Part shown: positions 40,323 through 46,436 of the stretch, piece by piece | How positions within the stretch are numbered: position 1 is the stretch's first letter | Layout: the number at the start of each line of letters is the position of its first letter | Assembly: GCF_022201045.2 (NCBI RefSeq) | Contig: NC_068557.1 | Location: 9,794,501-9,858,500 of the forward strand | DNA: 64,000 nt | Reading direction: 5' to 3' | Origin: Citrus sinensis | Lineage: Eukaryota > Streptophyta > Magnoliopsida > Sapindales > Rutaceae | Translations under genes and position numbers: made by a program | Notes under the pieces: generated by a model | What the model was told of the DNA's origin: nothing | Databases searched by the model: none | What the model saw: only the letters and a program-made list of their open reading frames with translations

Positions 40323-40697
40323 AAAAAAAAAAAAAACTCGTTAGCTACATATGTTGACAAGATGCTTCGCAATAAAATTGTACAACAAAAGAAAAAGAAT
40401 CAATTTTACTATTTCTTCTCGATTTTATATGACGTTAAATGTTTATATACATTTTTTTTTATTTGTATGGTTACAACTTACAACTAATGTAGCATACTTG
40501 GACCAAATTTATTTTGTTTATAACATTATAACAATATTCCTTTCCTTATGATTTCTTTAAATTTTGTAACTTGCCACTTTTTTGATCTAGTGAATCTAAT
40601 TGTAGATTGCCCATTTAAATTGATGATGTGTTTACTAAATGAAAATGGAAATAGAAATTAAGGAATTAAAATAATTGATGAGTTTACTAGTTAAAAT

Positions 40698-41417
40698 TAG
40701 GGGTGGGCAAATTCGGTTTGGATCGGTTTGAGACATATTCTCAAACCGATCCAAACTTATCGGTTTGAAATATTTTCAAACCGATATCAACCTAAAATTT
40801 TTTCAAACCGAACCGATCCAAACTGACTGGATCGGTTTGGATCCTCGGTTTGAGCTTATTAGCTAAAATCCCACTTCTTTTATATTATTTTACCTAAATT
40901 ATTTGTTATTTTTTTGTGTCCGTAATCTAAATTGATACCTCTTTTATATTATTCATATCTACTTTGATATCTACATAACAATTCAAAGATACATCCACAC
41001 AAATTTACAACATAATACATCCTAATAAAGAAGTTCTTAACATGTTCATTCAAAACAAACTCACAAAATTAAAATAAACTTGAACAACATTTGACAATTA
41101 AAATATTGTGCATCTTGTCCGTCAAAACTTATGGCCCAATTACTTTTGATTTGTCAAAGTCTGCATAAAATGGTAAATATAATTAGTTAGATTGTTTAGC
41201 TTAGAATATAATGTAATTACATAATATTTCTGGATTGGATCGGTTTGAATCGGTTTGGAAGGAAATCGGTTTGGAATCCTTCAAAACCGAAATCCAAACC
41301 GAGTGATGTCAGTTTGCAATCCAATAAACCGAAACCAGTTTTTTTACTAATGAAACCGATCCAAACCGATCCAAATGGTCGGTTTGGATCGGTTCGGTTA
41401 AAATATGCCCACCCTTA
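40698..41417. mobile_element. Non-autonomous hAT element (720 bp)
   Basis: The termini are TAGGGGTGGGCA and TGCCCACCCTTA (11 of 12 inverted matches). The flanking 8-mers are identical: GTTAAAAT at 40690-40697 and 41418-41425. Both subterminal regions consist of many copies of the motif CGGTTTGGATCGG and its complement, probable transposase-binding repeats. Confidence 0.94.
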
Positions 41418-41425
41418 GTTAAAAT

Positions 41426-44226: not shown

Positions 44227-44235
44227 TAATTTATA

Positions 44236-44904
44236 GGAAAAATATCCACCGTTCACCTGTTTTTTCTAACTTTTTTAAAAATACACAATTTTTTTTTTAC
44301 TGGAATCCACCTAAAATTACATTTTATTTCACTTTTCTACTTGCGTTTGGAATCCGTTAAGAAAACTAATGGAAACTTAAAAAATGACCATTTTACCCCC
44401 AAAACGAAAATTATAATTTCACCCTAAAAATGCTAAAAATAATCAGATTTAATGATGAATATCATTATTGGTACGTTAATGAAGTACAAAAAAATCTTAA
44501 CTACTAGAGATTATAACTCAATGAATAATAAAACTCTATTTATCTTAAATTCAATTGATGGTTTGCGAGATTGAGCTATTTTTAATACTACTGTTATAAT
44601 TTAGTATTCTAATTACATACATATTTAAAAAAAACCTTGTATTTGATGGTTGTGGAATTAATTTCTTTATTGACCGATGGGGAAAATAATTAGATTTAAT
44701 CTGATTATTTTTTATAATTTTTATGGTGAAATTATAATTTTCGTTTTGGGGGGTAAAATGACCATTTTTTTTTAAGTTTCTGTTAGTTTTCTTAACGGAT
44801 TTCAAACGGAAGTGAAAAAGTGAAACAAAATATAACTTAAAAAAAAAAGAATTGTATATTTTTAAAAAAGATTGAAAAAACAGGTGGACGGTGGATATTT
44901 TTCT
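44236..44904. mobile_element. Long-TIR Mutator-type non-autonomous element (669 bp)
   Basis: Inverted ends of about 190 bp starting GGAAAAATATCCACCGT. Flanked by identical 9-mers TAATTTATA (44227-44235 and 44905-44913), the duplication length of Mutator-like elements. There is no transposase frame. It is a sister copy of the intronic element 24268-24957, co-linear from end to end with scattered substitutions. Confidence 0.95.
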
Positions 44905-45103
44905 TAATTTATACTTTATTTTCTAAACTTCATCTATTTTAATCATATTAAAATGGAAGTATAAAATTGTATTACCAATGCAAAAATAGCAAAATAAACT
45001 AAAGTAATTAAAATCATTTCCATCAAACTAAATCAATTTTATCAACATTACAAGATAATCTATAAAATTAAGTAAAAGTAAAGCTTCAAATTTAAACATA
45101 TCT

Positions 45104-45352
45104 ACAATGGTGATAAGGATGCTGTTCCAGTCCCGGATTGGAACAGCATCAGGGAAGAAATTTGTGGCCGTTGGATTCAAGTCCAACGGCCCCAAATTCC
45201 TTTTTTTAATTTTTTTTGGGTTGGCTGCACATGATGGGCTCCACCATGTGCAGCCGCAGGTGGCCTTTGGATTTGAATCCAAAGGCCACCAGCCTCCCTC
45301 CAGGACGTTGTTCCAATCCGGGATCCGGGTTGGAACAGCACTCATGGCGATA
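45104..45352. repeat. Array of five consecutive hairpins (foldback-type element)
   Basis: Five separate inverted repeats lie back to back in about 220 bp. H1: 45118-45150, 12-bp perfect arms GATGCTGTTCCA. H2: 45166-45191, 10-bp arms GGCCGTTGGA. H3: 45223-45255, arms of 15 bp with one mismatch, GGCTGCACATG core. H4: 45259-45290, 15-bp perfect arms GGTGGCCTTTGGATT with a 2-nt loop. H5: 45310-45336, 12-bp arms GTTCCAATCCGG with one mismatch. H1 and H5 are also related to each other (TGCTGTTCC / GGAACAGCA), giving a loose overall inverted symmetry. The 6-mer ATATCT lies just outside both ends (45098-45103, 45353-45358), a possible target duplication. The segment is far more GC-rich than its surroundings. 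Confidence 0.88.
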
Positions 45353-45358
45353 ATATCT

Positions 45359-46436
45359 CTTGCATTAGAGAAAAGAACATTTACACCTTCAAGGTTTGAG
45401 AAAATAGTCATATAGATTCGCAAGTTCTAAAAAATAGACACCAAAACTCATTTTTGATCATAATACCTTTTAAATATATTAACTAAAAGATTAGCTTTAA
45501 AATTTTAATAAATACAAATATTATATAAATAATATAATCTATGTAGTACACTAATAATTTTAAAATGCTTTAACATTTATATAAATTTAAATATGTAAAT
45601 TATTATATTTATTTTAATAATATGTTTGTATTTATTGTAAAGACTTTAAATAAATATTTGCGTTGAATACATTTTACAATTAAAAAGAATCTCAGATACC
45701 AATAAAGTTAAAATTATTATTTTACATAATATTTAAAATAATTTAAATTTTAATACATTTATTTTAATATTTTGTTTCTGTTTATTATAAAATTTACTTT
45801 AATACAATGAAATATATCTAATAGATTGTAAAATATTAAAATATTTTTAAATATTGAAATTATTTTAAAATGTATATATTGTTACATTTATTTTATTATT
45901 ATATTTCTATTTATTATAAAACATTGGAGTCAATTTTTTTAGAATAATAGAGAAAAAAGGATATTATAGTCAAAGAGGGTCTCAATATCTATTTTTCAAA
46001 ATTGGGGGTATTGGTGACCATTTTCCTAATCTTTAAGAGTATAAATGTCTTTTTCCCCTTGCTTTAACATTAATCTATCACACAAATTGAATTATCTCTT
46101 GTTTATGAATAAAATAATTATGGCATATCACATTTATATTTAAGTCTTAGTTCCAATTCTTATCTATATTATTTTTTTTATAAATAATATGATATTTTTT
46201 TATTTACATTCACAATTTAAATTTTAAATATATTCGCTAAAAATTTTTTAAAAATAAAATAAAAATAAAAATAAAAATAGAAAAGAGAAATGGGGAGGAT
46301 GAAATGACGATTTCAACAAATCCCATCTTTTTCCAAATAAAATGTTAAATTACCCATGTTTCTTTCTCTCAAATAAAAAATTAGAAATAAATTTCTCTCG
46401 AAAATTGTACCCTCTCCAAATACAAAAAATTCCTAA
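45359..46436. other. AT-rich intergenic DNA
   Basis: No gene supported. Sequence is very AT-rich with repeated TTTATTATA-like phrases around 45590-45920, suggestive of diverged local duplications. Confidence 0.45.

Follow-up and report, generated by a model that had tools for sequence, protein, structure and literature searches.

The question raised by this locus is what kind of structure places five inverted repeats one after another within a short piece of the Citrus sinensis genome. In the 64,000-nucleotide stretch analysed here (the window), they could represent a mobile element, a gene for a multi-hairpin RNA or a mere cluster of palindromes. We consider it very probable that the five hairpins are one copy of a MITE, a non-autonomous DNA transposon, belonging to the Mutator-like elements that target microsatellites. 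All five hairpins reported by a preceding reading of the letters alone (the sequence-only reading) could be located. The RNA fold of positions 45090-45365 has an energy of -139.3 kcal/mol compared with a mean of -82.6 kcal/mol for shuffled sequences (z = -10.3; none of 200 shuffles was as stable). Folded as DNA, the other strand gave z = -12.4, and in this predicted structure the arms of hairpin 1 pair with those of hairpin 5, enclosing hairpins 2-4. The 64-kb window contains 18 hairpins with a short loop and arms of at least 40% GC, five of them inside the element, and five order-1 Markov controls yielded 5, 7, 6, 5 and 8 such hairpins in all. The description as a GC-rich island in AT-rich DNA was likewise correct, with 52% GC in the element against 22% in the 500 bp to the left and 16% in the 500 bp to the right. 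The sole open reading frame of at least 110 amino acids across the element (45028-45423, minus strand) had no Pfam match.

With the terminal motifs in other copies defining its ends, the element covers 227 bp (45117-45343) on the plus strand, the plus orientation being that in which a T-rich spacer lies 5' of hairpin 3. In the left terminal repeat, hairpin 1 (45118-45150) is the outer module and hairpin 2 (outer helix 45151-45206, palindromic core 45166-45191) the inner one. Hairpin 3 (45223-45255) is a central palindrome. On the right, hairpin 4 (45259-45290, with perfect arms of 15 bp) forms the inner and hairpin 5 (45307-45339) the outer module. The outermost hairpins are related to each other, as had been read from the sequence, and the same is true of hairpins 2 and 4; the first ≈75 bases (hairpins 1 and 2) can be aligned to the last ≈80 (hairpins 5 and 4) in reverse complement. 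Composite terminal inverted repeats of ≈80 bp, each made of two palindromes, thus enclose the palindromic centre, and these two modules per terminal repeat together with the central palindrome account for the five hairpins. The statement that this is not a simple two-TIR MITE is thus right insofar as each terminal repeat is built of two palindromes, and wrong insofar as hairpins 1 + 2 and 4 + 5 are mutual terminal inverted repeats. Their alignment comprises 79 columns in the window copy; among six copies examined the repeat was weaker or shorter in others (19 columns in copy L029, a low score in copy L041).

Copies were searched for in the same genome (299.7 Mb in 11 contigs). The segment 45090-45365 gave at least 91 matches at no fewer than ≈40 places, with 40 of 62 candidates scored. 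Pattern scans allowing up to three mismatches returned 27 forward and 26 reverse matches for the hairpin 1/5 pattern, 28 and 27 for hairpin 4, and 35 and 35 for hairpin 3; the patterns are nearly palindromic, so that most loci are counted twice in these figures. A second form of the left end was matched 4 + 1 times, and reversed control patterns had zero matches for all four hairpin patterns. In 69 of 70 fetched loci we found 77 clusters of at least two hairpin modules, a few of them weak. With T denoting hairpin 1/5 and B, C and D hairpins 2, 3 and 4, the module orders among the copies include T-B-C-D-T (the window type), T-C-D-T and T-B-C-T; hairpin 2 is absent from a short subfamily. The element is a dispersed repeat whose ends are constant and whose flanks are unrelated and variable. 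This bears out the suggestion of a foldback-like mobile element. Fifty-three copies chosen from the 77 clusters were aligned, with segmental duplicates (copies in L016, L048 and L051/L052) and short fragments left out. Divergence from the closest other copy lies between 2.7 and 26% (median 11%), and the window copy differs by 6.5% from copy L011. Some copies have spread by local duplication and not by transposition, as indicated by a local array at L051 and L052 (G000:C5:34668800-34680000) that carries one short copy with it, four times ≈1.44 kb apart and once more in inverted orientation. At L077:4616-5200, a diverged copy is located inside a longer inverted duplication that takes in its flanks.

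Sixty stretches were examined for their ends, and in 26 of these both ends were recognised by motif search. Typical left ends are GGAGGCTG or GGACAGTG, and typical right ends are CAGCACTC or CAGTACCC/CAGTTCCC. Judged on flank stretches of ≈28 bases, 22 of the 26 two-ended copies have microsatellites on both sides, one on one side and three on neither. In comparison, only 13 of 945 24-mers taken at least 300 bp away in the same loci were microsatellites. Under a stricter flank rule one further copy (L066, beside GT and a G run) is unclassified on one side, and the 26 copies correspond to ≈24 independent insertions, since L015/L016 and the two L053 copies are apparently duplicates of each other. 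The flanking repeats are mostly (TA)n. On one side they are sometimes (TATG)n, (CATA)n or (TG)n, pointing to compound microsatellites as additional targets, though (TA)n is usually present on the other side.

In all three two-ended copies without microsatellites, a direct duplication of 10 bp adjoins the ends precisely. In the window copy it reads ATGGTGATAA (45107-45116) and ATGGCGATAA (45344-45353), a 9/10 match that can be written ATGGYGATAA; L029 has ATCCAAATGT on both sides (10/10), and L039 has AAGAATTGAT/AAAAATTGAT (9/10). An agreement of at least 9/10 was seen in 299 of 718,830 random 10-mer pairs from the same flanks (P = 4.2e-4 each), although it should be kept in mind that only three copies show the duplication, two of them with one mismatch. 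Lying outside microsatellites, the window copy is one of the few that reveal the duplication length. The other copies place the ends at 45117 and 45343 instead of the formerly proposed 45104 and 45352; those boundaries were wrong, whereas the notion of a repeat with constant ends was right. The word ATATCT, taken as a flank of both ends, is literally present at 45098 and 45353. It occurs, as such or as its complement, 73 times in the window, and the real ends are bounded by the 10-bp duplication; a role of ATATCT as flanking signal is therefore ruled out, and its position is incidental. At the right flank of the window copy no empty site was seen, because the neighbour on this side is another high-copy repeat that starts only 20-25 bp from the element.

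The 10-bp duplications, the inverted ends, the small size and the targeting of microsatellites together match the Mutator-derived MuTAnT, SaTar and Ac-mMITE families. By analogy with these, the element is presumably mobilised by a Mutator-like transposase and presumably moves by a cut-and-paste route. Provided in trans, the enzyme would recognise its substrate by the terminal repeats, of which the palindromic modules would be parts, and integration would duplicate 10 bp of the target; (TA)n and similar repeats are where most of the observed copies lie. End-motif scans, a search with PF10551 and Pfam searches of open reading frames did not yield an autonomous element with the ends of the family, and the assignment to Mutator therefore rests on the duplication length and on analogy. 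A 21-base end motif (up to two mismatches) had 57 matches, all within fetched loci and either inside or next to short copies or fragments. A further end-motif scan counted 203 matches, against 36 for the reversed control, and there was no partner among the ≈100 matches listed. For PF10551, 150 of 899 candidates were scored, and the nearest lay 13.8 kb from the closest of 99 places matched by the family or the end motif. No Mutator domain was detected by Pfam in ten long open reading frames from six of nine loci of 9-10 kb.

The evolution of the stems bears on the role of the hairpins themselves. In the alignment of 53 copies 90.5% of the stem cells are paired, and pairing falls to 26-48% if the 3' partners are slid by 1-3 columns. 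Both sides have changed in 28 of 79 pairs, compared with 20.3 after shuffling (1 of 500 shuffles as high), and the number of cells with changes on both sides is 103 compared with 56 (none of 500), with lower values in the sliding controls; these compensatory changes largely reflect the split into two subfamilies and represent far fewer independent events than cells. Hairpin 1, with 14 of its 21 pairs, and hairpin 5, with 8 of 17, account for most of them, and hairpins 2-4 contribute six. The outer stems carry compensatory differences between subfamilies, and pairing of the outer modules presumably matters during amplification; the distribution of the changes nevertheless speaks against a strong reading of the hairpins as selected structures. 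Of the gaps of at least five columns, 84 of 92 touch a hairpin, and hairpins make up 169 of the 239 core columns. This is a hint of deletions during replication at palindromes; since many gaps are inherited (an identical loss of hairpin 2 is common to 14 alignment rows), however, their placement is suggestive only. Two ideas have been offered for the preference for microsatellites, namely a transposase specific for TA or circular intermediates that recombine (PMC5907723). A more far-reaching proposal is that the palindromic modules function in an unusual route of integration, in which hairpins extruded on single-stranded or circular intermediates would join microsatellites by pairing or recombination, and the compensatory change in the outer stems would record selection for the fold. 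We regard this as unlikely.

A transcribed multi-hairpin small-RNA precursor, i.e. a miRNA or siRNA locus kept for its RNA fold, had also been considered in the sequence-only reading; it finds little support here, and we judge it very unlikely. The very stable fold would suit such a gene, and MITE-derived miRNAs are reported across plants (PMC12550479). At Rfam gathering scores no family was matched; there were five weak matches, four of them to miRNA families, and the copies reside in unrelated flanks. A DNA palindrome that decays after insertion is expected to show similar totals of G-T and A-C changes, and selection on the RNA of one strand should favour G-T. Relative to the paired nearest relative, 78 G-T and 53 A-C changes were counted in hairpins 1-4 (nominal p 0.036), the direction expected for selection on a plus-strand RNA. 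Hairpin 5 shows the opposite (17 vs 25), and over all hairpins the difference, 95 against 78, lacks significance (p = 0.22); the counts share ancestry and are not independent, so that these p-values are too small. The raw mismatch cells amount to 153 G-T and 84 A-C in hairpins 1-4 and to 43 and 68 in hairpin 5. There is no consistent sign of RNA selection on the stems, in particular no consistent wobble-pair preference, even if the wobble test is not proof against it, and the evidence for an RNA role of the element is weak and mixed.

Membership in another superfamily, as a foldback element or MITE of, for example, Tc1/mariner (Stowaway), PIF/Harbinger or hAT, appears highly improbable. TA adjoins most ends, which superficially fits a TA duplication. 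These superfamilies duplicate 2, 3 or 8 bp, with a 2-bp TA for Stowaway, a Tc1/mariner MITE, and 8 bp for hAT, whereas the three copies outside microsatellites have duplications of 10 bp; Stowaway and hAT MITEs were rejected for this reason. That the inverted repeats cluster by chance, or that the structure is single-copy, can be regarded as virtually excluded, both being already refuted by the fold statistics, the dispersed copies with conserved modules and the failure of reversed control patterns to match.

The preferred reading, a Mutator-like MITE that targets microsatellites, has close precedents, and the view that no standard plant element has this layout was overstated. MuTAnT of Medicago truncatula (PMC4486113) is mostly 200-300 bp long, has modular foldback terminal repeats, resides mostly in (TA)n and reveals duplications in copies outside perfect microsatellites. 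It differs from the Citrus sinensis element by a duplication of 9 instead of 10 nucleotides, by a known autonomous partner and by one foldback hairpin instead of five local palindromes, a comparison by description and not by sequence. The SaTars of guayule, rice, sorghum and citrus (PMC5907723) are non-autonomous Mutator-like elements in microsatellites with, in guayule, 10-bp duplications outside them, and in both cases neighbouring families are joined by microsatellites. They are larger (380-1900 bp), the word 'hairpin' is absent from the main text of that report, and autonomous partners exist in guayule. Ac-mMITE-2 of pineapple (PMC8449440) shares the size (210-270 bp), the (TA)n flanks, terminal repeats (40-70 bp) and duplications of 9 or 10 bp in copies without microsatellites; no autonomous partner was found there either, and 'hairpin' is again absent from the main text. 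Its 24,588 copies contrast with the dozens seen for our element. Micron of rice (Akagi 2001, as described in citing papers) is also a short element in (TA)n microsatellites, though of about 380 bp. Tm1, a Mutator/Foldback element of root-knot nematodes (PMC3169594), has composite terminal repeats and duplications of 8-10 bp, but the repeats consist of tandem units of ≈14 bp and its authors do not infer a preference for particular targets. The element type as such is already described. The five-palindrome family itself was not found in the literature searched (Repbase and paper supplements were outside the scope), in which only one 13-letter string out of six hairpin strings was matched, in two unrelated papers. 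The five-palindrome layout is unusual, though the modular foldback ends of MuTAnT come close.

Other repeats were noted in the course of the analysis. Another multi-hairpin element (40698-41417) with repeated CGGTTTGGAT/ATCCAAACCG and ends TAGGGGTGGGCA.../...TGCCCACCCTTA lies between the two copies of a perfect 8-bp duplication, GTTAAAAT (40690-40697 and 41418-41425), and looks like a non-autonomous hAT element. Just left of the five hairpins, an inverted repeat of ≈215 bp with 82% identity (44234-44453 and 44694-44906) probably represents the ends of a further transposon. The AT-rich repeat on the right (≈45364-46056) had 601 first-look candidates genome-wide, and the best copies among 40 scored are 83-85% identical. 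The window further contains a gene with an IRX15/GXM domain (Pfam PF21729), which we take to be a plant family. At L082:1053-2918, two open reading frames with plant-pararetrovirus domains (movement protein, coat domain) mark an endogenous viral fragment near one end-motif fragment. Other short inverted-repeat families lie in or beside (TA)n at L011, L014, L043, L049 and L081. Some of these end in motifs such as TTTTCCAATCAGGGATC or TTCTGGTCAGGAA, which resemble the end TTCCAATCCGGGA of the five-hairpin family, and these families are possibly relatives in one microsatellite-targeting group.

As a mobile element the five-hairpin copy is otherwise ordinary. With its family, the Mutator-derived elements concealed in microsatellites would gain a further plant member, and three copies of the family allow the duplication length, normally masked by (TA)n flanks, to be read directly. 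Its composite palindromic ends may provide a natural test of whether the hairpin structure of a terminal repeat, beyond its sequence, plays a part in transposition.
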